In this document: piece after piece, positions 3,237 to 31,849 of the stretch | How the letters are laid out: each line of letters begins with the position of its first letter | How positions within the stretch are numbered: the stretch's first letter is position 1 | Virus record (IMG/VR): IMGVR_UViG_3300045970_000368 | Location: 1 to 35,699 of that record | Source of the DNA: a virus | Length of the DNA: 35,699 nucleotides | Reading direction: 5' to 3' (one strand) | Translations under genes and position numbers: made by a program | Notes under the pieces: model-generated | What the model saw: the letters and a program-made list of their open reading frames with translations, nothing else | Told to the model about the DNA's origin: nothing | Databases searched by the model: none

Positions 3237-3241
3237 GGTGG

Positions 3242-4630: not shown

Positions 4631-5494
4631 TCACCCTCTCGGAACCATGTTGCCAGCCGCGTTGAGACGGAAGCCATCGGGTAGCTCGGTGAGCACGCAA
4701 TGGCACCACGGGTGGTGCGACTCCAGCACGGCCTTCCGCTCTGAGTGCTTCCGCCCGACGTTGGTGCCGTGCGCGAGCAGCGCGGACAGCCGAAAGAGCC
4801 GGGGGCGGTTCGTCCCATCGACCAGATAGGCTTCCCGGCACTCGGGGCAGCAATCGGGGCGGGGGCGCTTGAAGACCAGCGGGTCCTTGCCCTTGTTGGC
4901 GCGCTGGATCGAGAAGAGCCTACCTTCTTGGTAGGCGTTGTTCATCTCTGTGACCGCGATCTTCATGAAGTCGGTCGCGTAGTCCTTGGTGGCGGCGCGG
5001 AGCTTGATCGCCACCTCCTTGGCCGTCTGCCTCCGGGCGATGCCGCCCCGGATCTCCCGCTCCAAGGTGCCCGCGAGGCGACGGCGGAGATCCTTGTCGG
5101 CCGCCGTGAGGATCTCGCCCGTCACGGTGTTGACCTTGTCCCCCAGCCCTTGGATGCGGGCGAGGAGGTCCCGCCGCACCGACTCGATGGCAGCGCGCTC
5201 CTCTGCCCCCAAGGGCGTGGGGTTGGAGGCGTGGACCTTCTTGAACTCGGCCAGCGTCACCGGGACCTTCCGCCCTTCCCTCTGGAACTTGGCCGCGAGG
5301 AGCCCGAACTGGAAGGCGTCCACCGGGCCGGGGTTGAAGGTGGCGGGCCACGTGTACCCCTTCACCCTGAGTCGCTTCACCATCTCGGGTGGCAGCGCGT
5401 CCTCACCAAACAGCATGATGAGAAGGAGATCATGACGGTCCACAATCTCTGCGCGGAGACGGACCATCGCCGTGTCGGTGACGAATGCGGTCAT
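4631..5494 (-). CDS. Mu F-like minor head (head morphogenesis) protein
   Basis: 287 aa. The C-terminal half carries the phage Mu gpF/SPP1 gp7 signature: a helix with TEMNNAYQEGRL (about 183-194), a Cys pair in PDCCPECREAY, and the closing HPWCHCVLTELPDGF (about 262-276), where His and two Cys probably bind zinc. The N-terminal half is mostly helical with many charged residues. Proteins of this family sit at the portal vertex in few copies and help start head assembly, and some are ejected with DNA. In most phages the gene directly follows the portal gene; here about 13.7 kb of large enzyme genes separates the two. Assignment rests on the motif order; the exact role in this virion is inferred. 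Confidence 0.88.
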   Translation of the reverse strand: MTAFVTDTAMVRLRAEIVDRHDLLLIMLFGEDALPPEMVKRLRVKGYTWPATFNPGPVDAFQFGLLAAKFQREGRKVPVTLAEFKKVHASNPTPLGAEERAAIESVRRDLLARIQGLGDKVNTVTGEILTAADKDLRRRLAGTLEREIRGGIARRQTAKEVAIKLRAATKDYATDFMKIAVTEMNNAYQEGRLFSIQRANKGKDPLVFKRPRPDCCPECREAYLVDGTNRPRLFRLSALLAHGTNVGRKHSERKAVLESHHPWCHCVLTELPDGFRLNAAGNMVPRG

Positions 5495-5497
5495 GGG

Positions 5498-5869
5498 CTA
5501 CCCGCGCTTTGCCTGCGACTGCTCTTCGAACTCGCGGACCTTCAGCGGCCCGCCGTCTCCGAAGTAGTCCTTGAACTCGTCGGGCTTCATCTCATCGAAG
5601 TGCGCGTTGCCGACGAGCCACTTGGGGACCTCCACCCCGTACTTCTTGCAGAACCACCGGAGCGCGGGGCGGGTCAACTCCGCGTACCGGCGGCGGGCGA
5701 AGGTCGAGTCCGGGACCCGGTTCTTCACGAACGGGTGGGAGAACCACTCCAGCGCGCTCTGGAGCTTCTCCTTGGACTTGATGTGCGGGAGCACACGCTC
5801 GGGCGTGTGCATCTCGATCACCTTGTTCTCTTTGAAGTGGTGGAGGCGGAGCAGCGGCTTTGAGATCAT
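5498..5869 (-). CDS. Hypothetical protein between helicase and Mu F-like genes
   Basis: 123 aa. The ATG overlaps the stop of the SNF2 gene (ATGA), implying translational coupling, and the stop is 3 bases before the Mu F-like gene. The sequence is basic and aromatic with no signal peptide or membrane segment. Features include a start ISKPLLRLHHF, a central PALRWFCKKYGVEVPKWL and an acidic C-terminal third rich in Asp/Glu. I recognise no family. Its position in the portal-to-Mu F block suggests a virion or head-assembly protein, possibly an accessory of the helicase-like protein; this is inference from context only. Confidence 0.85.
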   Translation of the reverse strand: MISKPLLRLHHFKENKVIEMHTPERVLPHIKSKEKLQSALEWFSHPFVKNRVPDSTFARRRYAELTRPALRWFCKKYGVEVPKWLVGNAHFDEMKPDEFKDYFGDGGPLKVREFEEQSQAKRG

Positions 5870-8800
5870 TCGATGAGCCCCATCTTCTTGAACTTGTCCA
5901 TGAACGGCTTCAGTTCCGCGCCGAGAGCCTTGTCACCCCCGGCGATCTTCTCCACCACCTCTGCGAAGTTCTTCGGCTTGTGCTTGAGGAACATCTTCCA
6001 CAAGCCGAGATCGTCGCCCTTGAGCTTCGGGTGCGTCTTGGCCTTGTAGGTGATGGTTCCGGCCTTCGGAGCCGCTGCGGGGGCCTTGGCGGGCTTCTGA
6101 GGGGCCTTCTTGGGGGCTTCCTTGGCGGCTGGCTTGGCAGCGGGCTTGGCGGCCTTCGCCTTGGGGGCCGCTGGCTCGTCCCCACCCGTGCCCTTGGGCA
6201 TCTCGGTCTTGGGGTCGGCCCCGCGCCCGGTGCGCGGCACGAGGTGACCTGACCGCGTCAGTTCCGCGAACTTCTTGCGCGCCAGCGTGAGGAGCTTCGG
6301 CTTGATCGTCTCCACGTGGTCGTCGGGGGCGTTCTTCGCGATCACAGGTGCGAGGAGAGTCTCCACGAGGTCTTCGGGAGTCCGCACGTTCTTGGTGATC
6401 ATCGCGTCGAGGATCTCGTGCTCCATGGTACCGGGAGAGAACGTGTTCTTCCCCTTGAGCGCCACGAACTCGGCGGGCGGCTGGGTCGAGCCCTTGCCCT
6501 TGCCCTTCTTGGGCGTGAGGACTTCGGTGGCCCCGGCCTCCTGCGTGACGGCGTTCCACGCAAGCTCCTCCCGCGCGATCTTCCTCTCGCGCTTGAGGTA
6601 GGTCTCCTTGTCGATCTTGTGGTTTTGGAGCCGGGTCTTGTTGACGGTCCGCATCTGACGAAGGTACTGGCCGCCGAACTTCTGCCAGTGGAGGAAGTCC
6701 TGCGTCTCCGCGAACTTCTCCTTGTTGAACTGCGTCTTGAGCACTTGGGCGGTCGGGATCCCCGTGAGCCCCAGCGCCTTGATCTCCGACTGAAGCTGCT
6801 CGTTGGTCTTGCCTGCCGATGGGTCGTTCTCGGTCTGACCGAGCAGCTTCAGCGCCGACGCCATCATGGCCGCGCCCGCGTAGTTCTCGCCGAGGTTCGC
6901 GTAGAGCGCCGCCTCCGTGCTCATGATCTTGGCGCGCAGCTTCTTCACCTTGGTCTCGTCGATGGCCCCGTTCAGCCGCACGTGGACGACATCGACCGTC
7001 TCCTTCTGACCGGTGCGGTGGACTCGGCCGACCGCTTGGTCAACGTCGGCGGGAGCCCACGGCTTGTCGAGGAAGATGATCTTGTTGGCCGACTTCTGGA
7101 GGTTGAGGCCCGCGCCGCCAGCTTGCACGCCCACCAGCACGATCTTGATCTTCCCGGCGTTGGCCGCGTCCTGCACGAGGTCGCGCTCCGACTGAGCCAC
7201 GCCTCCGTGGATCTCACCGATGAGCGACGGGTCGATGCCGTGCTTCTTGGCAAGCTCCTCCTTCATGTACTTGAACGAGGAGGGGAACGCCGAGAAGATC
7301 ACCACCGGGTGGTCGGTGTTGGCCGGGTCGTTGAAGTGCTTCGCGACGAGGTCACCAACGTGCTCGATCTTGGGCTGCGGCCCCTTCCAATCAGGTCCGA
7401 AGATGAGCTTGGGGGAGGTCGCGAGCTTCAACTGCTGATCAAGCACCCGCATGTACTTCGCGGGGCCCGCCAACTGGTCGAAGGGCTTGTACTCGGGATC
7501 ATCCTTCCGGTCGAAGGGAACGAAGGAGCCCGCCTGCGCGTACATCTCTTGCAGTTCCGGGTCCATCGCCAGCACGCTCTCCCGGTGGTTCGCGTCCTGC
7601 AACTCGGTCATGCCAGCGGCCTTCTGGTCGCGGCGCACGTCGGGGTCACTCTTCTTCTTGGCGTAGACGTAGGGCATCAACGTCTTGTTCATCTCCGTCC
7701 AGTCGGAGTGATCTGTCAGCTTCATCACCTTCTTGCCGGTGGCCTCGTCGTACTCCTCCGCGTAGGTGGCGACCTTCTTGGTGAACCGGGACAGCGACTC
7801 GCCAGCCGCACCCGGGTGGATGAGGTTGGTGAGGTTGAACATCTCCTCTGGCTGTCCGTTGGGCATGGGCGTGGCGGTCATGAGCCAGCCGTACTCGCGG
7901 CCACGGAGCATCTCGGCGGCGATGTGGTGGTGGCGGTTGCCCTTGTTCTTGAGGCCCTGCGAGGAGTGGTGGGCCTCATCGAAGACGACCGCGCCCTCCA
8001 GTTCGCGGAGGGCGTTCGCCATGCGGTCCTCGCGACGGAGAGCGGCAAGCTGGTTGCCGTACTCCTCATCGAGGTCGGCGGTGCTCCCGGCGGCCTTCCC
8101 CTTCTTGCCGCCCGTCCGCTCCTTCACCTTCGCTTGGTACTCCTTCTCCAGAGTGCGGACCTTCTCGCCCACCTCCGCGTCGAACTCCAGCGTGGAGGCG
8201 CTCATGATGACGAAGTCGGCCTTCATGTCGCCGCTGTTGATCGCCTCGATCATGTCGAGACGGTCCTCCATGCTCATGCCCTCGCCCAGCGTGACCACCT
8301 CGGCATCAGGGAAGAACGCCTTGATCTCGTCGGGCCATTGCTTCACCAGCGACTTGGGGAGGACGAGGACGCCGCGCTTGGTCTTGCCCTCCTCGATGAG
8401 CTTGGAGACGGCGGAGATCAGCATCGGGGTCTTGCCCATGCCGGTGTCGGCGGCGAGCATCCCGCGCTTGATGGTCAGCATCCAGTTGACCATCTTCTTC
8501 TGGTAGTCCATGAGCGTGAGCTTGCCCTTCATGGACTTCGACAGTTCGAAGTTGGAGTCCTCCCGGGCCGCAATCGCCTTCGTCCGCAGTTCGCGCTTGG
8601 CCTGCACGCGGGCGTTGACGGTCTTCAGCACGTCCTCGTTGTGGAAGAGTTCCTTGGAGGTGATCTCCTCCCGGAGGAGCATCGAGATGGCTTCGCCACC
8701 TTCGAAGTTGTTCATCTCCTCGATCTGCTTCTGCATCGAGAAGCCGATCTCATTGACCCGCTGGGCGATGAGATCCTGTTCCTTGTCGGACAGCTTGCGC

Positions 8801-9966
8801 TTGAACGCCTTGTCCATCGCGGGCCAGATCAACTCGTCCAAGTCGGCGGGGAGGCCGGTGCCCCACTCGCCGTTCTCGTCCTTGAACGCAACGTCGGCCG
8901 CGTCATCCTCGCCAGCGTTGATCACTTGGCGGAGCCGCTCACCGATGGCCCACGTGAGAAGCTGCCCGCCGTTCATGTCGGTGAAGAACCGGCGCTGGTA
9001 GTCCAGCACGTCGTCGTCGGTGCGGAGCGAGCCCTGCTCACTCTTGTCCTTCGCCTCGTGATAGGACGGCATGAAGAGGGTGCCGTTCTCCACGAGCAGC
9101 GCCAGCGACCGCAGCGCGGCGGTGTCGATGTCACCAGAGGCGACGTTCTTGTGGAAGTCCTTGGTGAGGTCGCCCGTCTCGTCCAGCCACTTGGAGAGGC
9201 TCCGCTCCTTCGACTTCCGGCGCTCGACCACGGCGTGCGCCTTCTTGATCATCTCCGGGTCTTCCAGCGCGGCCTGAACGGAGTTGTTGAAGCGGCCCCA
9301 CGCCTCCTCCGCGTCCTCCTCCGACTCGCCCCCCTCCACGAGCATCCCGGTCACGAAGTCGTGGACGGAGGCCCCGTTGTGCTGGGCCGCGTCGATCAGG
9401 TTCTTCAACATGGCCCCGTCGAAGTTGGGCATATTGATCTTGGACGCGAGGAACTCGTCCAGCGTGTCGTCGAACCCGATGATGACTTCCAGCTTCTTGT
9501 AGAGGTTGATGACCTCCGTATCAGGGAGGGCCTCGGTAAACCGATCACCGCTCGGCGCGGGGCGCACGCCGTAGCGGACGTGCCCGTGCTTGTCGAGGTA
9601 CCACTTGGACGCCCCGCGCGTACCGGCGGCAGCGGCCTCGGTTGGCTTGCGGTCGGCCTTCGTCTGGGCCGCGCTCTTGGGGGCGTTCTTCGGGGCCTTC
9701 GGCTCCTTGGCCTTGGGCTCGGGCTTCTTCTTTGGGGCGGGCTTCTTCACCGCCTTGAACAGATCATCCCCGTCGCCAGCCGAGACGAAGAGGGGTGAGG
9801 TGGACTTGGTCAGCCGCGCCGAGAGACGAAGGGCGGAAGCGATGCCTGCATTGATCTTAGTGAGGGTCATGAGGTACGCCCGCTCCATGGGCAAAACGAG
9901 GCTGTCCAGAACACCACTCTGGGTGTCTGGACCGTCCCGCCCTTCGTGCTCGTGCTGATCGGCCAT
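5866..9966 (-). CDS. Giant SNF2-family helicase/translocase with low-complexity tails (probable virion polyvalent protein)
   Basis: 1366 aa. The central region (about 490-1020) holds a complete SNF2 (superfamily 2) motor: motif I ADTGMGKT with Lys512, motif II DEAH (663-666), motif III MTATPMPNG, motif V GGAGLNLQKS and motif VI GRVHRTGQ (980-987). All catalytic residues look intact, so ATP-driven movement on double-stranded DNA is expected. The first 120 residues are Lys/Pro/Ala-rich. They contain GDDLFKAVKK and are followed by WYLDKHGHVRYG, a variant of a motif also found in the topoisomerase fusion. Residues about 380-480 are helical. The C-terminus has another Lys/Ala/Pro-rich linker and a short helical cap. 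It lies between head genes rather than replication genes, so packaging and ejection (as for phage P1 DarB) is the favoured inference. The ATG at 9966 has a weak ribosome site; an internal ATG at 9870 is less likely. Confidence 0.95.
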   Translation of the reverse strand: MADQHEHEGRDGPDTQSGVLDSLVLPMERAYLMTLTKINAGIASALRLSARLTKSTSPLFVSAGDGDDLFKAVKKPAPKKKPEPKAKEPKAPKNAPKSAAQTKADRKPTEAAAAGTRGASKWYLDKHGHVRYGVRPAPSGDRFTEALPDTEVINLYKKLEVIIGFDDTLDEFLASKINMPNFDGAMLKNLIDAAQHNGASVHDFVTGMLVEGGESEEDAEEAWGRFNNSVQAALEDPEMIKKAHAVVERRKSKERSLSKWLDETGDLTKDFHKNVASGDIDTAALRSLALLVENGTLFMPSYHEAKDKSEQGSLRTDDDVLDYQRRFFTDMNGGQLLTWAIGERLRQVINAGEDDAADVAFKDENGEWGTGLPADLDELIWPAMDKAFKRKLSDKEQDLIAQRVNEIGFSMQKQIEEMNNFEGGEAISMLLREEITSKELFHNEDVLKTVNARVQAKRELRTKAIAAREDSNFELSKSMKGKLTLMDYQKKMVNWMLTIKRGMLAADTGMGKTPMLISAVSKLIEEGKTKRGVLVLPKSLVKQWPDEIKAFFPDAEVVTLGEGMSMEDRLDMIEAINSGDMKADFVIMSASTLEFDAEVGEKVRTLEKEYQAKVKERTGGKKGKAAGSTADLDEEYGNQLAALRREDRMANALRELEGAVVFDEAHHSSQGLKNKGNRHHHIAAEMLRGREYGWLMTATPMPNGQPEEMFNLTNLIHPGAAGESLSRFTKKVATYAEEYDEATGKKVMKLTDHSDWTEMNKTLMPYVYAKKKSDPDVRRDQKAAGMTELQDANHRESVLAMDPELQEMYAQAGSFVPFDRKDDPEYKPFDQLAGPAKYMRVLDQQLKLATSPKLIFGPDWKGPQPKIEHVGDLVAKHFNDPANTDHPVVIFSAFPSSFKYMKEELAKKHGIDPSLIGEIHGGVAQSERDLVQDAANAGKIKIVLVGVQAGGAGLNLQKSANKIIFLDKPWAPADVDQAVGRVHRTGQKETVDVVHVRLNGAIDETKVKKLRAKIMSTEAALYANLGENYAGAAMMASALKLLGQTENDPSAGKTNEQLQSEIKALGLTGIPTAQVLKTQFNKEKFAETQDFLHWQKFGGQYLRQMRTVNKTRLQNHKIDKETYLKRERKIAREELAWNAVTQEAGATEVLTPKKGKGKGSTQPPAEFVALKGKNTFSPGTMEHEILDAMITKNVRTPEDLVETLLAPVIAKNAPDDHVETIKPKLLTLARKKFAELTRSGHLVPRTGRGADPKTEMPKGTGGDEPAAPKAKAAKPAAKPAAKEAPKKAPQKPAKAPAAAPKAGTITYKAKTHPKLKGDDLGLWKMFLKHKPKNFAEVVEKIAGGDKALGAELKPFMDKFKKMGLIE

Positions 9967-9967
9967 G

Positions 9968-10960
9968 CTACTCGTCGGTGCTGGTCGAATCGTCGTCGGT
10001 GCTGGACTCCTCGTCCGACGTGACCTCGCTCGACTCCTCCTCGCCCTCGTCGTCGCCCTTGGGCGGCGGCGGGCCCTTGCGGAGCGACTGCGCCTGCTCC
10101 ATCACGAGGTTGCGCGGGGACGAGAGGCCGGGGACGCCGTCCTCCTCGACCGACTTGGCGAAGTCGGCGTCGGCCGTGCCGTCGTAGCGCACGGCGGCGA
10201 AGCTCTTCGCGAGGGGGAACAGGCTCTTCTCGGTGGTGGGGTTGCCGGGCTGGGTGGCGCGGCGCTGCACGCCCTTGCCCTGCGAAGCGCCCTTGGCCTT
10301 GGCCGGGATGAACGAGCCGGTCTTGCCGCCCTTGTGGGGCTCCATCTGGTTGCCGATGTCGAGCTTGCCCTTCTTCTTGCCCTTCTTGCGGCCCTTGATG
10401 ATCAGGCCGTCCTCGCTCTTGGCGATGAGGAGGCCCTCACCGCAGTTGGGGCACGAGTGCGCCCCGATGTCCGACTTGAAGATCTGTTCGAAGTCCATGT
10501 CCGCTCCTTGGTTGGTGGTGAGGCTCTTCTCGCTGCTGTACTTGTAGATCTTGAACCCGCCGCCCTGCTTGTGCTGCTCCGGGTACTTCTTCACGTAGCT
10601 CGCGTGGCACCGCTGCGCGCCCAGCTTGGTCCCGTGAACGTGCTCGCAGCTTCCGCCCTCCGACTTGTGCCCGACGAAGAAGCCCGGCGACTTCGCGGCC
10701 TTGTTCAGATCCCCGGCCCCGGTGGACCGCTGGAAGATCTGCTGGTAGTGGTGGTTGGCGACCGCCTGCATCCGGGTCTTCTCGGTGTGCATCCCGAGCT
10801 TGACCTGATTGGAGACCGCGCCCTTGGGGTTGTAGACGAGCGGCGACTTCCCGCTCTTGTCCTTCTTGCCCACGTTGTGGATGTAGGTCCCGTGCCCCGC
10901 CACGAGGTGGTGGTAGTGCTTGCTCGTGGGCTTGAACGTCAACGAGTTGCCATCCGGCAT
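9968..10960 (-). CDS. Zinc-ribbon, DLxK-motif virion-type protein with acidic tail
   Basis: 330 aa, started by an ATG behind AAGGAGATCAAT. There is no overall family match. Visible parts are a His-rich N-terminus (1-80), GDLNKAAKS (83-91), a Cys/His cluster (105-119), an FKSD segment followed by a half zinc ribbon (HSCPNCGEGLLI, about 168-179), a Lys/Gly-rich stretch (189-200), TEKSLFPLAKS and DADFAKSV (243-271), and a 30-residue Asp/Glu/Ser tail. The alternation of basic, Cys/His and DLxK or FxKS segments mirrors the 757-aa protein before the portal gene, suggesting a shared class of internal head proteins. The acidic tail could mimic DNA or mask the basic part. Function unknown. Confidence 0.88.
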   Translation of the reverse strand: MPDGNSLTFKPTSKHYHHLVAGHGTYIHNVGKKDKSGKSPLVYNPKGAVSNQVKLGMHTEKTRMQAVANHHYQQIFQRSTGAGDLNKAAKSPGFFVGHKSEGGSCEHVHGTKLGAQRCHASYVKKYPEQHKQGGGFKIYKYSSEKSLTTNQGADMDFEQIFKSDIGAHSCPNCGEGLLIAKSEDGLIIKGRKKGKKKGKLDIGNQMEPHKGGKTGSFIPAKAKGASQGKGVQRRATQPGNPTTEKSLFPLAKSFAAVRYDGTADADFAKSVEEDGVPGLSSPRNLVMEQAQSLRKGPPPPKGDDEGEEESSEVTSDEESSTDDDSTSTDE

Positions 10961-10975
10961 ATTGATCTCCTTTTC

Positions 10976-12589
10976 TTACGGCTTGCGCTTCTTGGGCGCG
11001 GTGAGTTTCTTGTCGAGCTTGATGATACTCGCCCGCAGGGTGTCGGTTCTACCCCCGGCCTTCACCCCGACCCGGGTGACGAACGCGGAGCCCACCGTGG
11101 TGACCGTGTTGAGCGGGACGCCGTACTTCTTGAAGTGGGCCGCGTGGCGCTTGGGATCTTCCTTCGCCGCCTGCTCGTTCATCGAGTTGAAGCTGACGGC
11201 AAGGAGTCCGCTGACTTCAGGGATCATCCCTTGCACCACGCCGAGCCCCATGGTCGGGTGCTTGATCACATCGCCCGGGGCCCAATCCTCCTTGGGCACG
11301 GGCGTCTGCTTGAAGGTGGTGTGCGCGAGGACGTGCTTCTGCCGCAGGGTGTGAGCCGTATCCATGTGCCGTTCTCCCGGTCGTGCCGCGATGACGCTCA
11401 TCTTACCCGACCGGGCTCGCTTGGTGTACGCCTTGTGCCCCCGCAGCGCCTTGACGACGGGTGGAGTGCGGTGGACGAGTTGCTCGTGCAGTTCCTCCAG
11501 ATAGTTCCTCGGCACGCGGTGGAGGGTCATGAGCGTGGGGTAGTGGACCTTGAAGTGGGTGATGAACCCGTTCACCGGGAGCCGCTCCGCGAGCTTCCGG
11601 AGATCCTCGACTTGGACGTGCAGCAGGCTCGCCAGCTTCCCCGGATCGACGGGCTTGGCCGGGGGAACCGGGGCCTCGGCCCCCGGAGCGCCCGCAGGAA
11701 GGCCCCCAGCGCCCCCGCCCTTGTGTTTGCGGGCCGCGTTCGCCTCCGGATAGCGGTACTGCTTCCGGCCGCCGCTGGAGGACACGCCGGAAGCCTTGGC
11801 GGGCTGGCGGGGAGCGGCACGCTTGGCGTCGAGCTTCTTGGACTCTGCACCCTTGTCCTTGGTGTAGATCGACTTCTTGATCGCGGGCTTGTAGTCCCAG
11901 TTCGGTTCGTAGAGCCGGGCCTCCTTGCCGTTGGCTCCCTCGCCAAAGGTGGACAGGAGTTGGCCCCGCTTCCGCATCTTCTCCAGCGTGTTGTGAACCA
12001 TCAGCGGGAGGCGGCCGTCCTTCACGTCGATCTCGTCCGGGCGGTTGCGCTGCCGCAGATCAGCCACAAGGTAGCTGGCGGTGATGCTTGGCTCCTTCGG
12101 CGGCTTGATCCCGTTCTTGGCGTGGAAGCGGGAGAGACCCATGTAGTTCTCGTAAGCCTCCCGCACGAGTTCATCGAGCTTGGCCTCCAGCCACACCTGA
12201 TTGGCCTTGGTCAGTCCGGAGGTGCCCCACTTGATCTTCTCGGCTTCGCCCTCGCCACCCTCCGCCGTCCACTTGCCGTCGCTGCCCCGGGGCTCGTCGG
12301 GAGGGCCACCCTTCTCCAGCTTCTTGATCTTCCGGTAGTAGTCCGGATCCTCCACGAGGTGGTCGGCGGCGATCTGCTCGGCCGTCTTCTCGTCGTCGGT
12401 GTGCTCCTTCTCGTGCTTGGCCCCCTCCTTCAGCTTCTTCTTGGGGAGGTCCCCGGGCTTCACGCCCTCCTTCTCGGCGCGACCACCATGGAGGGCCTTG
12501 AGGATATGATCCTCAAGCTCCCCCTCGGTCATCTCCACCAGCGACTTCTGGAACACGAAGCGGCGCTCATCGAGGTAGATGGGGATCAT
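10976..12589 (-). CDS. DUF5661-containing multidomain protein
   Basis: 537 aa. The ATG shares one base with the stop of the topoisomerase fusion gene (TAATG), with GAGG upstream. Residues about 43-92 match DUF5661, a small phage domain with the signature EHT-x-D...A-x-x-I-A-x-DHL-x-E-x-P-x-YY, present here as EHTDDEKTAEQIAADHLVED then PDYY. Directly after is PRGSDGKWTAEGG (100-112), which resembles the R-x-x-x-G-[KR]-[WF] linkers common in phage head proteins. A Pro/Ala/Gly-rich linker occupies about 275-320. Residues about 432-467 (WAPGDVIKHPTMGLGVVQG) look like the SH3/Tudor-like domain at the C-terminus of UvrD-type helicases. The tail is basic. It may act with the neighbouring SNF2 protein; role inferred, biochemical activity unknown. 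Confidence 0.9.
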   Translation of the reverse strand: MIPIYLDERRFVFQKSLVEMTEGELEDHILKALHGGRAEKEGVKPGDLPKKKLKEGAKHEKEHTDDEKTAEQIAADHLVEDPDYYRKIKKLEKGGPPDEPRGSDGKWTAEGGEGEAEKIKWGTSGLTKANQVWLEAKLDELVREAYENYMGLSRFHAKNGIKPPKEPSITASYLVADLRQRNRPDEIDVKDGRLPLMVHNTLEKMRKRGQLLSTFGEGANGKEARLYEPNWDYKPAIKKSIYTKDKGAESKKLDAKRAAPRQPAKASGVSSSGGRKQYRYPEANAARKHKGGGAGGLPAGAPGAEAPVPPAKPVDPGKLASLLHVQVEDLRKLAERLPVNGFITHFKVHYPTLMTLHRVPRNYLEELHEQLVHRTPPVVKALRGHKAYTKRARSGKMSVIAARPGERHMDTAHTLRQKHVLAHTTFKQTPVPKEDWAPGDVIKHPTMGLGVVQGMIPEVSGLLAVSFNSMNEQAAKEDPKRHAAHFKKYGVPLNTVTTVGSAFVTRVGVKAGGRTDTLRASIIKLDKKLTAPKKRKP

Positions 12590-15500
12590 TACTCGACCTC
12601 TTCGAACGGGTTGTTGAGCCCAGAGAGGACGGCGCTGGTGAGCCCGTCGAGGGGGTGCGGAGCGGTGGTGACGAGCCGCTCCTCGTACAAGGGCGGCCAC
12701 ACGACGCGGTCGAAGTAGGCGCGCAGCGCCTTCGCCAGCGTCTCGGCAGAATTGAACATCGGCTCCTTCTTCTGCTGCGGCGTGCGGAGGTCGATCCCCA
12801 GCGTGTTCATAGCGAGGAGCAGAGCGGCGGGGCTGATGTACTGGTCACGAACGGTGCCGGTCCCGGTGATGCCCTTCCCTTGCTTGCCCGCACCCTCGTT
12901 CACCCGGTGGCCCAGCTTGTGGGCGGGGTACACGAGCATCCGCTTCAGCATTTCGTTCGCCTTCTTCTTGTCCCAGCCCTTCTGCTTTCGCAGACTGAGG
13001 ATCTTCGCGGTCTGACCCTTCACAACCCCCACGAAATACTTGGTCGCGTGGTAGTGCCGGAAGTTGTGCGCCTTGACGCCCGGTGCGATGGATTGCAGGT
13101 AGCTGTTGATGTCCGCGCTGCTGATCGAGAAGACTCTGTCCGTCTTCTTCTTGCCTTCCTTGAGCGCGGCGAGGATGTCCAGCGCGGCGAGGAACGGCTT
13201 CTCCACCACCACAGGCCCCGCCTTCCGCCACGTGTGCTCGTCAAACCCCTTGGCCGTGTAGGCGTAGCGGATCTCTCGGCCCGCCACCGGAAGGTGTCGG
13301 ACTTGCAGGGAGGTGAGGCCGAACCGGTCCTTGCCTTCCTTTCCGGCGTCAGCGTCCACGCGGGCGTGGAAGGTGTCGAGGCACACCACCGCCAGCGCGA
13401 TCTCACGGGTCCGCTTGTTGGGCGAGTGGAGATCCTGCTTGGCGTGCTCCATGATCTTGTCGTGAGCGCGGTCGAACACGGCCACCTGTTCCCACTTCGC
13501 CTGCAAGGACCCTTCAACCGAGACGGGGTTCACGTAGATGAGGCCCGTCTTGTTCACGAACCTCGGGACCTTGATCTTGGCGTAATACTTCGCGGTCGGC
13601 TCGGTACAGACCTTTCCACCCTTCGCCTCCCACCCGGCCGGGAAGGAAGTGCCGTTGAGCGTCACGTCTTCGTGAGTCGCAGGCGGGCTCCACGAGCCAC
13701 GGAACTCGTTGTGCGCGTCAAGTTCCTCGTTCCCGGACCCCGTGAAGATGCGGCCCGCGAGGAGCGTCGCCTTGTTGGCGAGGCGGTCGGGCGTGCCGTC
13801 GATGATCGCAAACTCCCTTGGATGCGTCTTGGGCGTCCGCTCCCCCTTGAACCCTGCAACCTTCGGCTGCGGGGTGACGGAGTGGCGGAGGTACGCCCGG
13901 ATCACCGGCTTGAAGAAGAACTTGAGGTCGGTCGGCAGCACCTTCATGCCCGTGTGCTCCGCGAGGCTGTCGCAGAAGTTCTTCTTGAACACTTCATCGA
14001 AGCCGCGCGGCGGCGTCTCCGCGCAGAGGTAGCGGGCCAGCGCCCACCCCATCTCCTCGGTGGTCTTGTTCTTGAAGAGCCCCCTGCTCTTGTACGGGGG
14101 TGGGAACTCGATGCCCGGGTTCTTGCACGTCTTCCAGCGCGCCGGTCCCGCCGCCTTCGCCTTCTTGGGCCCCTCGATCTCTCCGGGGGTCGGCGCGGAC
14201 GCGAGCCCGTTCAGGAGCCATGCGTTCCACTCCCCAACCGCGAGCTTCGGCACGTTGAGGGCTTCAATGTCCACCCCGCTACCCTTGAACTTCATGGCGA
14301 AGACGGCGTGGAACGCACGGTTCCAGTCACGGAGAGTGGAAACATTCTTCGCCGCGCACACCTTCATGAGCGCGACCCTGAACTCGTCGTGGTCCGTGTC
14401 GTCGGAGAGGCCGTGGATGGTGATCGGGTGGTCCTTGGTCATGTGCTTCGACCAACGGATCTGCACCTTCTTCTTCGGCTTGGGACGGGGCATCGAACCG
14501 GACGGAGCCGGGGCCTCCACCGGGGCTTCTGCCTGCTCGACGGGCTTGATCCCCTTCGGGTCCACGTGGACGAGCTTGCCCGTCTTGAGGTGGCGAACGT
14601 AGCCCTTGTGGCCGTAGGGCTTCAGCGCCTTCGCCGTGTACTTCCCGGCGTTCGACTCGTCCTTCAGCCAGAGCTTCTGGTACGTGGCGACTTGGGCGTG
14701 CTGCACCGCCGTCATGTACCGGCTGAACTTGTAGGTGCCGTCTTGCTCGACCACCACGCGATGTCCGCTGCGCCCGCCCGGGACCGTCACGGCCCACGCG
14801 CCGGGGCCGGTCTTCCAGACGGTCACCTTGCCCCCGGCGTAGCCGAACTCGGGCTTCCACGAGGGGAGCCACTGCCGCTGGGGCTCGTGCTCCTCGTGCG
14901 CGAGGCGGAGCGGGAGGTACTCCGCGAGATCATCCAGATTGTCGAGCCCCGCCATGTCGGGGTCCTCGCCCTCCGCCTTCTTCGGCCGCCACTCCACCTT
15001 GAACGAGTCGAGGATCCCCTCAAGCTCCTTGCAGAGGTCCGGGAACTCTGATGTCCCCGACCACTCGCCCCACCCGCCGTAGGCCAGCCGGGGACCGACC
15101 TGTCCGGTGCCGCTCCCGCCGTTCGCCTTCTCGACCATCCCGTAGAACCACTCGTTGAAGAAGCGGGCGAAGACCTCGTGCGGGCCGTTGGCGTACTCAG
15201 AGAACTTCCGATTGCGCCGGATGGACGCCATCTTCTCGCAATGCTTGGGGCCGCGCTTGAGCTTCGCGACGAACGCCACCACCTTCTTGTTGACGTGCGA
15301 CCCCGGGGTGGTGCCCGTGCCGCCGAGCTTCTGGTAGTCGAGGTAGTGGCCGAACTCGTGGGCGAAGGCGGCCCACCCCTTCTTCTTCGCGTCACCGACC
15401 TCGATGAAGTTGTAGGTCGAGTAGTAGAACCCGCCCCACTTCTTGCTCTTCGACAGGGAGGGCGCGTCGGTCTGGATCCCCAGCCCGCCATCGGCCTTGT

Positions 15501-16344
15501 AGAAGTCGAAGAGCTTGAGGTAGGGCTGGAGGCCCGCGTTGAACAGCGTCTCCGCCTTGGGATCATTCTTCGCAGACCACACCCGAAGGTGCGCCGTCTC
15601 GTCCGGAGGGCGAACGGTGAGACAGCCCGCCTCCTCCCACAGTTGCACGAGGTCCACGAAGGCGTTGTTCAGATCATCTTCATCGAAGGTGCTCCCCGAC
15701 AATTCGGGGTCACGCATGAACATCCAGTTCACAGCGCGCCCAAGCGCCTCGCGGAGGAGCGTTCCGGCGAGCGGCACGCCCTTCCGCTTGGAGCCGAGCG
15801 ACGTGGCGATGTTGTTGTACAGTTCTTGGTCCTGCTCATCCAGCCCTTGTGCCTTGGTGAGCACGAAGGTGGACGAGAGCGCGCGGGACAGCGCCTCGTT
15901 GTCGAGGACAGGGTCCTCGTAGTTCCCTGTGTCGATCTCCTCGACCTCCGCGTCGCTCTTGCCCTTGGGGGCGGGAGCCGCCGCGAGCTTGATCCCCTTG
16001 GCCTTCACGGGAACCAGCTTGCCGGTCTTGGTGTGCCGGGTGTAGGCGGTGTGGCCGTAGGGCTTGGCCGCCTTCTCCAGATCGATGAAGAACCCGCCCT
16101 TGTCCGTCTCGTTCACGCCCGCGAAGCCGCGACCCACCGGCACGTCGGGGATGGTCTCGTCTTGCGTGGTCTCGTTGTCCGGGGCCTCTTCGAAGTATTG
16201 ATTGATCGGCGTGGGGTCCACCGTCTTGTCTGACGCTGCCACAGGCGCGGTGCGGGCCTTCCGGCCCGTCCAATGCCCATGACCGCGAGCGCCGTTGACG
16301 ACCTCACGGATGATCAGCTTCTCAGCGGATTGGATACGCGCCAC
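12589..16344 (-). CDS. Zinc metallopeptidase - type IB DNA topoisomerase fusion (polyvalent protein)
   Basis: 1251 aa, GTG start with GAGG 6 bases upstream, overlapping the previous gene by 23 bases. Order of parts: KPYGHTAYTRHTKTGKLV repeat (94-111); metallopeptidase region (about 160-450) with HEFGH (329-333), zinc ligands His329 and His333, catalytic Glu330, and a downstream PHEVFARFF (388-396) that may supply the third ligand; second copy of the repeat (KPYGHKGYVRHLKTGKLV, 575-592); a linker; and a C-terminal type IB topoisomerase (about 830-1180). The topoisomerase shows VVCLDTFHARVDAD, KDRFGLTSLQ with Arg1007, Lys1032, AHNFRHYHAT with Arg1096, PAHKLGH with His1142/His1146, and GTGTVRDQYISP with Tyr1169 as nucleophile. 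The full R-K-R-H-Y set appears present, so DNA relaxation is likely. Head-gene context suggests delivery with the genome. The peptidase could mature virion proteins or attack host defences. Confidence 0.93.
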   Translation of the reverse strand: MARIQSAEKLIIREVVNGARGHGHWTGRKARTAPVAASDKTVDPTPINQYFEEAPDNETTQDETIPDVPVGRGFAGVNETDKGGFFIDLEKAAKPYGHTAYTRHTKTGKLVPVKAKGIKLAAAPAPKGKSDAEVEEIDTGNYEDPVLDNEALSRALSSTFVLTKAQGLDEQDQELYNNIATSLGSKRKGVPLAGTLLREALGRAVNWMFMRDPELSGSTFDEDDLNNAFVDLVQLWEEAGCLTVRPPDETAHLRVWSAKNDPKAETLFNAGLQPYLKLFDFYKADGGLGIQTDAPSLSKSKKWGGFYYSTYNFIEVGDAKKKGWAAFAHEFGHYLDYQKLGGTGTTPGSHVNKKVVAFVAKLKRGPKHCEKMASIRRNRKFSEYANGPHEVFARFFNEWFYGMVEKANGGSGTGQVGPRLAYGGWGEWSGTSEFPDLCKELEGILDSFKVEWRPKKAEGEDPDMAGLDNLDDLAEYLPLRLAHEEHEPQRQWLPSWKPEFGYAGGKVTVWKTGPGAWAVTVPGGRSGHRVVVEQDGTYKFSRYMTAVQHAQVATYQKLWLKDESNAGKYTAKALKPYGHKGYVRHLKTGKLVHVDPKGIKPVEQAEAPVEAPAPSGSMPRPKPKKKVQIRWSKHMTKDHPITIHGLSDDTDHDEFRVALMKVCAAKNVSTLRDWNRAFHAVFAMKFKGSGVDIEALNVPKLAVGEWNAWLLNGLASAPTPGEIEGPKKAKAAGPARWKTCKNPGIEFPPPYKSRGLFKNKTTEEMGWALARYLCAETPPRGFDEVFKKNFCDSLAEHTGMKVLPTDLKFFFKPVIRAYLRHSVTPQPKVAGFKGERTPKTHPREFAIIDGTPDRLANKATLLAGRIFTGSGNEELDAHNEFRGSWSPPATHEDVTLNGTSFPAGWEAKGGKVCTEPTAKYYAKIKVPRFVNKTGLIYVNPVSVEGSLQAKWEQVAVFDRAHDKIMEHAKQDLHSPNKRTREIALAVVCLDTFHARVDADAGKEGKDRFGLTSLQVRHLPVAGREIRYAYTAKGFDEHTWRKAGPVVVEKPFLAALDILAALKEGKKKTDRVFSISSADINSYLQSIAPGVKAHNFRHYHATKYFVGVVKGQTAKILSLRKQKGWDKKKANEMLKRMLVYPAHKLGHRVNEGAGKQGKGITGTGTVRDQYISPAALLLAMNTLGIDLRTPQQKKEPMFNSAETLAKALRAYFDRVVWPPLYEERLVTTAPHPLDGLTSAVLSGLNNPFEEVE

Positions 16345-19150
16345 GGATTGCCTCGTAGTCAGCCAGTTCGTTCACCAGCCGGTTGACCGCCCCGGAAATC
16401 ATGGTGTCTGTGCGGAAGCTCTTCTTCGTCTCTTTCGCGTTCGCAATCGTCTCGATCATGGTCCGCAACTCCGTCCCGGAGATGCGTGCGATCTTCTGCT
16501 CACCGATCTTCACCGACTGAAGCAGGATGTCCTTCGGCGTCATCCCCGGCGGGAGGGTGGGCAGCGTCGGCCGCGTGGGCTCGACGTACTTGGACGGGAC
16601 CGACACGCCCCGGCGCTTGTAGCGGTCCGCGATCTCCTTGTACGCCACCAGATCATCTTCGTAGTTGGCGAGGTCCAAGGTGTACTCGCGGACCCGCTCG
16701 GTGTGGGTCATGATCGTGTCGAGCATCTTCGCGGCTGGCTCGACTGCACGGCGCAGCGTGAGCGCGTCCACCTTCTCCAGCTTCTTGTGCGCCTCGTACA
16801 GGCGCTTCATCCGCTCCGCGTGGATCGAGATGGCCCCGGGGACCACGATGTTGGGCGACCCGATGTAGTGGCGGGCGTCGAACGGGTGCGGGATCACCGT
16901 CTCCTTGCCGTTCTTGTCCACCTCGATGCGCGGGGCGAGGTGGAGGGCGAGCTTCTTGGTGAGCGCCTCGTTCTCAGGCTTCATCCAGAACGCGATGTGC
17001 GGAAGGCTGGACATCCTCTCCCGGGTGGTGTGCTCGCGGGGCTCCTTGCCGCTGTCCTGCCGTTCCACCGCCTGCATCTCCTCCAGCACGGTGGTGTGCA
17101 GCGGGCGGTTGGTGTTGGCTTCGTAGCCACCCGGCCCTTGGGTCATCTTAGCGTCCACGGTGTGGATCGGGTGCAGCGCCTCTGGCTTGGAGGTCTTGCC
17201 CTTCGGAGCGCGCCGCCAGCCGTGGAAGAGCGCCCCCGCCTTCCGGTGAGCGAGGATGTCGGCGTAGACGCGGAGGCCCGCAGCGACCGCCGCCTTCTCG
17301 TGGCCCGACAGCTTGGTGGTGCGCTCGTCGCGGAGGTAGGTGACAGCCTGATCGAACAACGCGGGGGCGTCCCGCTCCCAGCGAGCGACGGAGCCGCCGT
17401 GCCGATCACGCAACGCCTCGGCCACGTCCCGCCACGTCTTCGCCTTGGCTGGGAGCTTCCCACCGGGGGTCGCGGTCGCCTCCTCGGTCTCGCGGATGTT
17501 CAGCTTCGCCATGAGGACCGTGAACATCTCGGGCGGCAAGCGCCGCTGGAGGATCTCCTCGGCGTCTGTGAGCAGAACGCTTTCCTCCGCGTCGATGTAG
17601 CGGTGCTCCGCGATGTCAACGATGCCACGGGGATCAAGGTTATTGTCCACGTAGAGTTCCGCGTTCAACTCGTCCTCGGTCTGCCTCGCCTCCTTGGACG
17701 CGCTCCCCGGGACCGGGACGGACAGGTACTCGCCCTCATCCTTGGCCCGCTGCCGCCGCTCCGTGAACAACTCGCGCAGCTTCCCCTCCAGCGTGGACTT
17801 CAGGTACATGGGGAAGGTGATCCCGTTGTCGAGCTTCACCCCAGCCTTGATCGGGATGTAGTGCTTCGCCACGTCGAGGATGGTCTCGTAGACCGTGGCA
17901 TCCATGTCCGCACGGAACTCCTCGTCCTTGGCGAGCCCGGGGAACTGGGTGAAGTAGCCTGCGGTCTTGGCGTACTTCCACACCCGCCCACGGAGGATGC
18001 GCTCGCCCATCGGCAAGTACACCGAAAGGAGAGCATTGCTCTCCTTGGTCGTGAAGTCGTTGATCGGCTGCCCGTTCTTGTCGGTGCCGACCTTGTGCCA
18101 GCCGTCTGTGAGGAGGTAGCCCATCGGGTCGGTGGTGGGGTCCACGTCCTCGTACTCTTCCAGCGCCCCGATCACCGTCATCTTGCCCTGCCCGGTGCCG
18201 AACGCGGTGCCGCCCTCGGGCTTCGCCTCGATGGAGCTTCCGCGCAGCCGGTTCATCCGGCGGCGAACGTCATCGGCTTCGGGGCTCGACTGCCAGTTGG
18301 GCCGCCCCTTCTCGCCCCACTTCTTCTCGTTCTGGGCGTCGAGCTTGATCCGCCTCCACTTCCCTCGGAGGCGCTCCATCTCCGCGACCCGCCAGCCCGT
18401 GGGGCGCTGGAGTAGCTCCGCTCCCAGCTTCTTCAGCGCGGCCTCGCGCTCCACCAGCGCCCGCTTCTTGGCCCCGCCTTGGGTCTGGAGCGCGTACCAG
18501 TTCCCGCCGTCCTCCTTGGCCTTCTTCTCCTTCTGGTAGAGGTAGCTGACTTCCTTCTTCAGCTTCTTGATCTCGCCCTCCACCTCGTCCATCTTGACGG
18601 CGATCTCGTCGGCGCGCTTGTCCACGCCCTCGCTCATCAGGTCGGACTCGCCCACCTTGCTGACGATCTTGGTGGCCCCCTCCTTCGTCACCTTCTTGGC
18701 GTCGAAGTTGGCGACGCGCTCCTCCAGCACCTTCCGGCCGGGGAGGGTCGCAGCCTTGGACGGGTCCTCGGCGGCGAGGTCCGGGTCAGCGGCGACAGTC
18801 TGCGGCTTGGGGGTCGCGAAGGGATCAAACACCCCCCGCTTGTAGGAGAGCGCCCCGGTGTTGTGGCCGCGCGGGAGCGCGGCGCTGGTCGAGGCTTGGA
18901 TCAACTCTGGGATGGAGGTGTAGGGCGACTGCGGCGACAACTCCAGCCGCACCCCGATCCCCAGCCGGATGTAGCGCGCGTAGATGGTGTGGATCTGGGC
19001 AAGCTCGGAGGCGTAGAGGTAGCGCGTGTACGCCATGTGCGAGCCGTGCGACGGCACGTGGAGGATCGCCACGTAGTCGTGCTTGGCGCTGCGCGCCCCC
19101 GGGGTCCGCGCCTTCGCGAGCGTTCCGACGATCTTGTAGGCGCGGAGCAT
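16322..19150 (-). CDS. 942-aa virion-type protein with a sigma-70-like core
   Basis: 942 aa. The ATG overlaps the portal stop (TGATG). The N-terminus (1-110) starts with a DLxK-like LAKARTPG. A coiled-coil, Lys/Glu-rich segment spans about 175-275. Residues about 370-465 resemble sigma-70 region 2: a helix LLSVYLPMGERILRGRVWKY, then DMDATVYETILDVAKHY, then FPMYLKSTLEGKLREL before an RR pair, in the order seen in sigma factors around the core-binding and -10 recognition helices. Residues about 520-607 (LPPEMFTVLMAKL, then TWRDVAEALRDRHGGSVARW) resemble region 4 with a helix-turn-helix. The last 330 residues are helical and unrecognised. The sigma resemblance is my reading of patterns and is moderately uncertain. 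If real, this is a second, head-cassette-encoded sigma-like protein. Confidence 0.9.
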   Translation of the reverse strand: MLRAYKIVGTLAKARTPGARSAKHDYVAILHVPSHGSHMAYTRYLYASELAQIHTIYARYIRLGIGVRLELSPQSPYTSIPELIQASTSAALPRGHNTGALSYKRGVFDPFATPKPQTVAADPDLAAEDPSKAATLPGRKVLEERVANFDAKKVTKEGATKIVSKVGESDLMSEGVDKRADEIAVKMDEVEGEIKKLKKEVSYLYQKEKKAKEDGGNWYALQTQGGAKKRALVEREAALKKLGAELLQRPTGWRVAEMERLRGKWRRIKLDAQNEKKWGEKGRPNWQSSPEADDVRRRMNRLRGSSIEAKPEGGTAFGTGQGKMTVIGALEEYEDVDPTTDPMGYLLTDGWHKVGTDKNGQPINDFTTKESNALLSVYLPMGERILRGRVWKYAKTAGYFTQFPGLAKDEEFRADMDATVYETILDVAKHYIPIKAGVKLDNGITFPMYLKSTLEGKLRELFTERRQRAKDEGEYLSVPVPGSASKEARQTEDELNAELYVDNNLDPRGIVDIAEHRYIDAEESVLLTDAEEILQRRLPPEMFTVLMAKLNIRETEEATATPGGKLPAKAKTWRDVAEALRDRHGGSVARWERDAPALFDQAVTYLRDERTTKLSGHEKAAVAAGLRVYADILAHRKAGALFHGWRRAPKGKTSKPEALHPIHTVDAKMTQGPGGYEANTNRPLHTTVLEEMQAVERQDSGKEPREHTTRERMSSLPHIAFWMKPENEALTKKLALHLAPRIEVDKNGKETVIPHPFDARHYIGSPNIVVPGAISIHAERMKRLYEAHKKLEKVDALTLRRAVEPAAKMLDTIMTHTERVREYTLDLANYEDDLVAYKEIADRYKRRGVSVPSKYVEPTRPTLPTLPPGMTPKDILLQSVKIGEQKIARISGTELRTMIETIANAKETKKSFRTDTMISGAVNRLVNELADYEAIRGAYPIR

Positions 19151-20898
19151 CAGGTCAACCCGATGTCATCGAGTTCTGCCAGCGCCTTGCTGATGTCCTC
19201 GGTGAGCGGTGACCGCCTGCTCGCCATTGAAGCCCTCACGGTGAACTCCCACGGGGCGGCCGTCTCCTGATCCTCATCGGACGGAGGCGGCTTGGCCTTG
19301 GCGCGGTTGTTCGACGCGAGGAGGTGCTGCTTCACCCCGGCCTCGACCTGTCCGTGTGGCTTCGGCCCGTTCTTGCCTTCGAACATCCCGCCGAACGCCT
19401 CGGGGGCTTGCTGATCCTCTTCACCGTTGGGGACCGGAGGAGCGCCACCGGCACCCGGAGGGCCGCCCGCAGCGCCACCGGCCGCCGCCTGCTGGGCCTG
19501 CATCTCCTTCTGCCCAAGGTAGGAGGTGTAGACGGGGTTCATCGGGATGTCCCCGTTCTTCATCGGCGGGAGATCATCCTCGGCACGGACCTCGTTGAGC
19601 GTCTTGTAGCTCTGGAGTTCCTTGAGGCGAAGCTCGATGGCTTGCCCCTCGGACTGCGCGTCGAGACCGACGAACCACAGTTCGAACCGTGGGTCGATCT
19701 CCGGGATGATGTGCTCGTTGAAGAAGTTCTGGAAGAACCGGATGAGCGGCTGGAGGCCCCGGTCCTTGGAGATCTTCTGCTGGGCCTCGTTCGTGCTCAT
19801 GAACATCGGCTGCTGGCCGGGTCCACCGCGCGTGTCGAAGTTGATCTCGGCCGGGTCGATGAGGTAGATGGCGCACGCCACCTTGATCAGGTACTCCAGC
19901 CATTGGCCGTAGCCCATCTCCGTGTTGGACGGCTGGAGGGGCACCCACTCGATGCCCTCCGCGTTGAGGAACGGCGTGCGCCATGCGTTCGACACGCCGC
20001 TGACCTGTGCCATCCATTGCCGCTTGAAGTTTTCGAACTGCGTCCCGGGGATGTTCCCCTTGACGTTGAAGATGCCCTTGATCACCGACCCTTGCGAGAA
20101 CGCCTTGCGGTTCCACTCCTCGGCCCAGAGGTGCGAGGTGATGGTGGTGATGAGCATCTCCAACTCGGAGAAGCCGTACCCGTGGACCCGGAGGTTGGTG
20201 CGCGGGTTCGCGACCCCGAACGCCATCTCGCGCCGGGTGTACTCGGCGGCGATGTTGCCGTCGATGATCTGCACGTAGCACGGGAGGTCGGCCGCAGCCT
20301 TGCCCTCCAGCGGCGTGCCCTTCTTCCGACGCGGAGCCGCCAGCCGGATGGTGTCGGCGGGCACCGCGTAAAACGCATGAAGCCGACCGGAGTTGGTCGG
20401 CACCTTCTCGACGCAGACCTGATCGTAGGCCAGTCGATCTCGGGTCACCTTCCGCACGAAGGTGTCGAGGTTGTCACGGCCGAAGCCGCTCCCCGCCCCC
20501 GTGTGGAGGAGGATCTCCTCGATCTCGTGCGCCCGGTCGCGCTCGCCATCGGACATCTTCTTGCGGGCGTCCTTGAGCCGCACCTTGAACCCGACGCTGT
20601 ACTTGTTCATCTGGCGCTGGGTGAACGCGGACACCTGATTGATCCGCGTCTGCATGATGGACGCGATGACGACGTTCTTCTCCGACATCTGGGAGAGAAC
20701 CTCGTAGGAGAGCGTCGAGGGGCTGGTCTTGTACCCCAGCCCCATCTGGTCGAGCATCTGGAAGGGGTCGGTGAACCATGACTTCGGCACCATCCCCGGG
20801 CCGGGAAGCCCGTCCGCGAAGCCCGCCTTGGAGATCATCGGCTCGGGCTCTCGCACGGGACCGACGACCATGTCTGTGATCGAGCGAGGAACGGCCAT
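19150..20898 (-). CDS. Portal protein
   Basis: 582 aa. Twelve portal subunits form the ring through which DNA enters and leaves the head. The length and order of parts fit the phage portal family: N-terminal part with LSYEVLSQMSEKNVVIASIM (early helix), a wing region with YDQVCVEKVP and a beta segment, then the stem region with an EEWNRKAFSQGSVIKGI helix, a central WLEYLIKVACAIYLIDPAEI and the DPRFELWFVGLD strand. The Gly/Pro/Ala-rich C-terminal third (about 470-582) is low-complexity and ends with SKALAELDDIGLT, reminiscent of the DLxK motifs of its neighbours. The following 942-aa gene overlaps the stop. A terminase gene is not in the window and should lie to the right or elsewhere. Confidence 0.93.
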   Translation of the reverse strand: MAVPRSITDMVVGPVREPEPMISKAGFADGLPGPGMVPKSWFTDPFQMLDQMGLGYKTSPSTLSYEVLSQMSEKNVVIASIMQTRINQVSAFTQRQMNKYSVGFKVRLKDARKKMSDGERDRAHEIEEILLHTGAGSGFGRDNLDTFVRKVTRDRLAYDQVCVEKVPTNSGRLHAFYAVPADTIRLAAPRRKKGTPLEGKAAADLPCYVQIIDGNIAAEYTRREMAFGVANPRTNLRVHGYGFSELEMLITTITSHLWAEEWNRKAFSQGSVIKGIFNVKGNIPGTQFENFKRQWMAQVSGVSNAWRTPFLNAEGIEWVPLQPSNTEMGYGQWLEYLIKVACAIYLIDPAEINFDTRGGPGQQPMFMSTNEAQQKISKDRGLQPLIRFFQNFFNEHIIPEIDPRFELWFVGLDAQSEGQAIELRLKELQSYKTLNEVRAEDDLPPMKNGDIPMNPVYTSYLGQKEMQAQQAAAGGAAGGPPGAGGAPPVPNGEEDQQAPEAFGGMFEGKNGPKPHGQVEAGVKQHLLASNNRAKAKPPPSDEDQETAAPWEFTVRASMASRRSPLTEDISKALAELDDIGLT

Positions 20899-23177: not shown

Positions 23178-23211
23178 GTGACTCTCCTGTTGCTGAGTTG
23201 AGGCGCCGCGA

Positions 23212-31825: not shown

Positions 31826-31849
31826 GGTGATCTCCATTGCTCCGCTAGA

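Follow-up and report, generated by a model that had tools for sequence, protein, structure and literature searches.

A swappable cargo slot between the portal and MuF-like genes of an uncultured SPO1-like myophage lineage carries enzymes with candidate prohead-protease sites

The window, a linear virus fragment of 35.7 kb, harbors a head-gene cluster in which the portal and MuF-like genes are separated by 13,655 bp (5495–19149), matching the ~13.7 kb estimated when the DNA was first read from its letters (hereafter the sequence-only reading). Five large ORFs and one small ORF fill this gap (Table 1). The SNF2 and DUF5661 genes announced by that reading were both recovered by Pfam profiles. Two further assignments hold in part: the proposed topoisomerase-metallopeptidase fusion comprises a well-matched type IB topoisomerase, whereas its peptidase consists of a HEFGH zincin signature at residue 329 (15346–15360) with no Pfam peptidase match, and the zinc-ribbon protein displays a CPNC zinc-ribbon-like motif with no family match over cut-off. 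The genes had likewise been described as all coupled by overlaps. This applies to the junctions portal/sigma-like (1 nt), sigma-like/topoisomerase (23 nt) and SNF2/123-aa (4 nt), and to topoisomerase/DUF5661 (1 nt) if the latter gene starts at ATG 12589, whereas gaps of 15, 1 and 3 nt separate DUF5661/ZnR330, ZnR330/SNF2 and 123-aa/MuF, respectively.

Table 1 Genes of the head cluster in the window, with the evidence for their assignment
Feature	Position	Strand	Evidence and remarks
Pre-portal 779-aa protein (g779)	20904..23243	-	Opens head cluster; 8 [LIVMF]xK[SAG] sites (DLNKA, DLEKG, DLEKS...); zinc-ribbon-like CxxC pairs
Portal, SPO1-like	19150..20898	-	PF04860 E 6e-18; phrog_12 E 1e-54; tblastn ~40-44% to SPO1/Lysinibacillus phages
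Post-portal 942-aa protein, sigma-like domain	16322..19150	-	Structure comparison, synteny; no Pfam match over cut-off
1251-aa TopIB + HEFGH protein	12589..16344	-	PF01028 E 6e-19; 6z01 E 7e-22; profile with L004 E 3e-43
DUF5661 protein, 537 aa from ATG 12589	10976..12589	-	PF18905 E 6e-11
330-aa CPNC zinc-ribbon-like protein (ZnR330)	9968..10960	-	Motif-rich cargo class
1366-aa SNF2 translocase	5866..9966	-	PF00176 E 2e-20; PF00271; prodomain alignment
123-aa protein	5498..5869	-	Adjoins MuF across whole clade
MuF-like head protein	4631..5494	-	phrog_1657 E 9e-4; 32-37% identical to MuF-position protein of relatives
PI3/PI4-kinase/HipA-like kinase	3242..4093	-	PF00454 E 5e-8; in relatives kept between MuF and prohead protease

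The name MuF-like is based on position and a Cys/His motif, as the Pfam profile PF04233 did not match the window protein at E 0.001; its match to phrog_1657 (“head morphogenesis”) is weak, and the corresponding proteins of relatives match VG15. An HNH endonuclease gene (PF13392; 4097–4627, minus strand) sits between the MuF and kinase genes, is missing from the maps of most relatives and resembles a homing insertion; two more HNH-looking genes are located at 28675–29151 and 30266–30778 (minus strand). Straight after the kinase, at the position of the prohead protease in relatives, follows a gene for a GDSL-lipase-containing fibre-like protein (3–3254, minus strand; at least 1083 aa, its reading frame running off the end of the window). 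On the other side, an FMN-reductase-like gene (23212–23910, minus strand), also found in the related locus L016, precedes the head cluster, and two proteins with CxxCxxCC zinc/iron-chelating domains are encoded at 26638–27225 and 33694–34206 (minus strand).

Portal searches of viral contigs yielded 69 loci, which are partly redundant and whose genes were called mechanically; searching 84,980 species genomes with the portal found no relative. The order within the clade is portal, variable cargo, 123-aa protein, MuF, HipA/PI-kinase-like protein, prohead protease, scaffold, major capsid protein (MCP) and tail. A comparison of portal-to-MuF spacing in related phages, suggested by the sequence-only reading as a check, found the cargo slot conserved at ~4.8–16 kb in this uncultured SPO1-like clade. 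L016 encodes relatives of the post-portal, DUF5661, zinc-ribbon and SNF2 proteins in the order of the window, and L110 has the same series of genes (portal, sigma-like, DUF5661-slot, motif-rich, tagged SNF2, 123-aa, MuF) but no topoisomerase. The topoisomerase is optional, being confined to the window and a single relative. Post-portal proteins of this type occur in the window, L016, L004, L029, L031–L033 and L110, and the C-terminal domain of the DUF5661 protein is conserved in the slot, occurring in 18 proteins. Other members carry different enzymes: NUDIX and/or 2H phosphoesterase domains occupy the DUF5661 slot in L030, L031, L032 and L033 (both together in L031/L032/L033), an 828-aa protein of L031 matches S-AdoMet lyase (E 3e-7), and L028 has LPD1 and a kinase. 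No SAM lyase, 2H, NUDIX or methyltransferase domain was recognized in the window.

The surrounding head module is SPO1-like. The window portal is homologous to that of SPO1-like phages, and the relatives’ protease (phrog_1028, E 4e-47) and MCP (phrog_752, E 4e-90) follow in order; this protease was missed by the Peptidase_S78 profile and detected by PHROGs. Protease, scaffold and MCP of the window phage itself are known from relatives only, because they lie outside the 35.7-kb fragment. SPO1, CampHawk and phage K (Herelleviridae) share homologous portal, protease, scaffold and MCP genes in the same order and with the same K|S/A site. In contrast to the present clade, they have no cargo block, MuF or kinase between portal and protease: in CampHawk and phage K the protease directly follows the portal and the cargo is absent, and in more distant SPO1-like members the protease also directly follows the portal, with MuF and SNF2, where present, located upstream. 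In this uncultured lineage of SPO1-like myophages, the interval is a cargo slot of the head operon with swappable content.

Within the SNF2 protein, the ATPase spans residues 488–1000; the protein matches phrog_62 and the DarB-like phrog_10089 (E 4e-14), and Pfam found no methyltransferase domain in the window protein. PADLOC matches to Zorya, Dpd and BREX were rejected as a defence identity, as they reflect the shared helicase core only. The 1251-aa protein contains a predicted archaeal/eukaryal-type topoisomerase IB with cap domain (12829–14139): residues 736–1104 match 6z01 including the cap in a phmmer search, and profile A8 matches human TopI (E 6e-24). R995, R1096 and Y1169 align with the L004 topoisomerase, the catalytic His plausibly lies in LGH 1144–1146 and the Lys near residue 1030, where the automatic alignment is shifted. 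An apparent loss of the catalytic-His segment relative to L004 was attributed to this shift and rejected, LGH being present. Two “GHxxYxRHxKTGKLV” segments follow K|A in the same protein (16018–16056 and 14575–14613). Single-sequence searches of cultured phages and viral contigs retrieved no relative of the topoisomerase protein; among the viral contigs scanned a TopIB relative was identified in L004 only, and among cultured phages none except one weak partial match.

The sequence-only reading had also called the post-portal protein sigma-like, which structure comparison supports at the level of predicted fold, while profile searches at normal cut-offs missed it: Pfam returned no domain over cut-off for the window protein, and in the relative L029 Sigma70_r2 reached 17.4 bits against a cut-off of 24 bits (E 4e-4 in a search of that genome). 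For the domain of L033, modeled at pLDDT 78, sigma factors make up 49 of the 50 VIA-align rows, with a best Z of 8.3 and an rmsd of 2.9 Å over 79 residues to sigma28. The full-length AlphaFold model of the window protein (pLDDT 45) is unusable as a sole basis, and the rows obtained with this poor model within residues 320–620 are again sigma factors (SigB, Z 8.1; VIA-align), the domain being placed at ~residues 341–609 (17324–18130). Foldseek gave no significant match for either the 942-aa model or the L033 domain, and because the Z scores are middling for helical proteins, we use the term “sigma-like” rather than “sigma”. An HMM built from five relatives did not detect the window protein, and its orthology is therefore argued from synteny, from a BLAST hit in L016 (E ~1e-5) and from the structure rows. 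Alignment A3 (the 942-aa protein and L016) had no matches among viral contigs, and PDB profile searches with A4 and A7 returned nothing relevant. A separate, bona fide sigma-70-type factor with regions 2 and 4 (E 4e-17 and 1e-11) is encoded at 31052–31837 on the minus strand.

The block proteins contain a short motif, [LIVMF]-x-K|[SAG], noticed first in the window and then quantified with controls. Cargo proteins of the window and its relatives hold 313 sites versus 170 expected from shuffles, which ignore domain structure (z 11.9); the observed and expected counts are 94 and 29 in pre-portal, 50 and 26 in portal, 71 and 12 in scaffold and 44 and 5 in protease proteins. The motif is not enriched in upstream genes (58 versus 74 expected), in tail genes (25 versus 33) or in the MuF, kinase and 123-aa proteins. 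Control motifs in the cargo gave z 0.1 and −0.3 for spacing variants, −0.6 for K>R, 1.9 for K>E and 3.7 for the mirror motif, which reaches 5.6 in scaffold and 8.2 in protease; as the mirror is mildly enriched, a minority of the cargo excess reflects local composition. That the motif is an artefact of choice by eye was considered and discarded, since an untargeted residue-triple scan also places L..KA, L..KS and I..KS high, and since scaffolds of phages outside the motif choice are rich in sites (CampHawk 11 versus 1.2 expected, phage K 7 versus 1.3; weakly in a Listeria phage, 3 versus 1.5). MCPs of the relatives possess a conserved site near residue 24, DELSK|ALSAGYQ, which aligns with EDVVK24|S25 of the phage K MCP. 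The PDB chain 9row (439 aa) starts 24 aa later than 5lii (463 aa), exactly at VVK24|S25, and these deposited sequences imply maturation cleavage of the phage K MCP at this bond. The motif distribution suggests that [LIVMF]-x-K|[SAG] is a prohead-protease-type site and a candidate cleavage position.

Among the window head-block proteins, ZnR330 (7 sites versus 1.9 expected, P 0.004) and g779 are the only ones individually enriched, and P 0.002 is also attained, by chance or for another reason, by the two small non-head ORFs g195 and HNH158. ZnR330 and its relatives, a class partly defined by site density, total 149 sites versus 41 (z 18.7). Whole-protein counts of the large window enzymes are not enriched (SNF2 8 versus 8.2, topoisomerase 7 versus 6.3, 942-aa protein 1 versus 4.0), so their case rests on position and homology. 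Six of seven post-portal proteins have a site within their first 14 residues, the class overall not being significantly enriched; the 942-aa and 1251-aa proteins offer single candidate sites only, LAK|A at residues 11–14 (19109–19120) in the former. N-terminal sites FQK|S and ILK|A are present in the DUF5661 protein.

SNF2 proteins concentrate their sites at the N-terminus, where the first 150 aa contain 28 sites versus 7 expected (z 8.1). The class with SNF2-less 470-aa proteins has 13 versus 2.5 (z 7.6). In both, the sites occupy conserved positions, near residue 22 and at 70–100, of a prodomain shared by the aligned N-termini and usually followed by PGSRGGKWYRDxxGxVRYG. The window SNF2 prodomain carries LTK|S (residue 52) and DLFK|A (residue 69), the latter representing the 70–100 site, and lacks the residue-22 site. 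The protein is further marked by a tag, RGASKWYLDKHGHVRYG, at 9568–9618. The tag type was detected in 15/64 cargo proteins and 0/249 others, on proteins as different as SNF2, post-portal, the L004 topoisomerase, the L031 SAM-lyase protein and the 470-aa type. Scanning viral contigs for the tag alone returned 19 loci, seven of them new, and in 7/7 of these the tagged or corresponding protein lies directly upstream of, or is fused to, the 123-aa protein beside MuF. No tag was found in cultured phages.

Taken by analogy with T4, P1 and SPN3US, these features indicate that the enzyme set is probably packaged inside the head and reaches the host together with the DNA. In T4, a capsid targeting sequence (CTS) directs proteins to the head and gp21 cuts at L/I-x-E (PMC9026906); P1 DarB has an N-terminal CTS, with no consensus among Dar N-termini (PMC9024508); and the SPN3US protease recognizes A-x-E (PMC10052503). 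The proteases of all three phages use short motifs comparable to [LIVMF]-x-K|[SAG]. With the P1 Dar system the block shares a large SNF2 protein with a probable place in the head, a gene near portal and prohead protease and a putative N-terminal targeting segment (PMC9024508), but it has no DNA methyltransferase domain, its common prodomain and tag are visible, and topoisomerase and sigma-like proteins are added. T4 internal proteins and Alt similarly combine an N-terminal propeptide, a short P3-x-P1 motif and swappable cargo (PMC9026906), whereas here the motif is [LIVMF]xK|[SAG] rather than [LI]xE, the putative propeptide measures ~70–100 aa and multi-enzyme cargo is encoded in one operon between portal and MuF. 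As in the polyvalent proteins of Iyer et al. 2017 (PMC5512222), unrelated catalytic domains occur among head genes together with SNF2, zincin-like and LPD domains, the block being encoded with head and packaging genes (portal...MuF...protease-scaffold-MCP) as described for (pro)phages; unlike there, most domains have an ORF of their own, and these ORFs have protease sites and a tag in common. The text of that study contains “topoisomerase” once and “sigma” not at all (PMC5512222). The kinase-like protein of L028 (3068–5998) is fused to the polyvalent domain LPD1, and the MuF-position protein of that locus (1779–3071) contains a Hint/intein-like domain (PF13403, E 8e-9).

We therefore favor as likely, taken as a whole, a slot in the head operon whose enzymes, read as a “polyvalent” cargo, are trimmed, packaged and ejected. 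N-terminal prodomains would recruit the cargo into the prohead core, the prohead protease would trim it as the scaffold is destroyed, and the trimmed proteins would be packed beside the DNA and ejected together with it. Inside the cell, the SNF2 motor may move along the DNA as it enters, the IB topoisomerase may relax this DNA and the sigma-like protein may bias host RNA polymerase, while anti-defence enzymes of other members would act alongside from the same slots. Delivery of a transcription function at entry, as proposed here, would be shared with the N4 virion RNA polymerase and the packaged RNA polymerases of SPN3US and phiKZ; unlike in those phages, no RNA polymerase is encoded here and the sigma-like protein would act on the host enzyme. 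Packaging has good computational support; the intracellular role, the opening and transcription of the genome at entry, is the weakest step of the proposal. Only tentatively do we suggest that a capsid-delivered sigma-like factor, translocase and TopIB seize host RNA polymerase and remodel phage DNA from the start of infection, the cargo being brought in by an N-terminal prodomain or tag that is generic and transferable.

Since SAM lyase, NUDIX and 2H domains occupy the same slots, an anti-defence or host-takeover function is at least as likely as a transcription kit. This alternative concerns function rather than packaging, and we rate it as quite possible, little short of an even prospect: the SNF2 protein, given its phrog_62 and DarB-like matches, could track DNA as DarB does, SAM lyase could deplete the methyl donor of restriction, 2H/NUDIX enzymes could counter nucleotide second messengers, and the sigma-like protein and topoisomerase could be incidental or serve host shut-off. 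The enzymes of L030–L033 and the LPD1 domain of L028 fit such a kit, whereas the window has none of the recognized lyase, 2H, NUDIX or methyltransferase domains, and the recurrence of the post-portal protein in eight loci, the window included, argues that it is not incidental to larger blocks.

It is unlikely that the proteins are instead prohead core or scaffold-type assembly factors, packaged and processed but not delivered, with the sites as sacrificial linkers. The motif-rich class is indeed scaffold-like and mostly devoid of enzyme domains, but SNF2, TopIB, SAM lyase, NUDIX and 2H have no obvious role in assembly, and the conserved SNF2 sites are confined to the N-terminus. Still less probable are ordinary replication or expression genes inserted in a late operon and acting after synthesis in the cell. 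SNF2, topoisomerase and sigma factors are typical intracellular phage functions too, but the clade keeps the same interval with its tag and prodomain, the motif is not enriched in upstream genes and a bona fide sigma factor is encoded elsewhere in the window. A replication-gene cluster in relatives, with the same genes expressed early only, would have counted against delivery in the sequence-only reading. In the relatives G002, G009 and G010, however, tens of kb separate the block from DNA polymerase A-type genes, and the block SNF2 is the sole SNF2 match in G007, G009, G010 and G011 (G002 has a second, weak one), which argues against the block being a replication cluster. That [LIVMF]xK[SAG] is a by-product of lysine-rich linkers and no protease site is very improbable, since the mirror-motif signal in cargo, higher in protease and scaffold, is set against the flat spacing and K>R controls, the implied experimental cleavage of the MCP, the conserved SNF2 prodomain positions and the sites in CampHawk and phage K scaffolds.

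If the packaging reading holds, prohead-protease site and prodomain or tag would together provide a sequence-level rule for head-carried proteins of SPO1-like phages, so that ejection of a given protein could be read from its sequence and put to the test, and the tag or prodomain could serve as a transferable label that directs proteins into capsids. If the sigma-like protein is delivered, phages that bring no RNA polymerase of their own may in some cases reprogram host transcription as they enter. As to the predicted processing enzyme, the C-terminal tail of the protease (L045, L048, L050, L061 and others) matches the profile of the MCP N-terminus (KALxAG...GG.L...LE), as though a copy of the MCP maturation site were present there.
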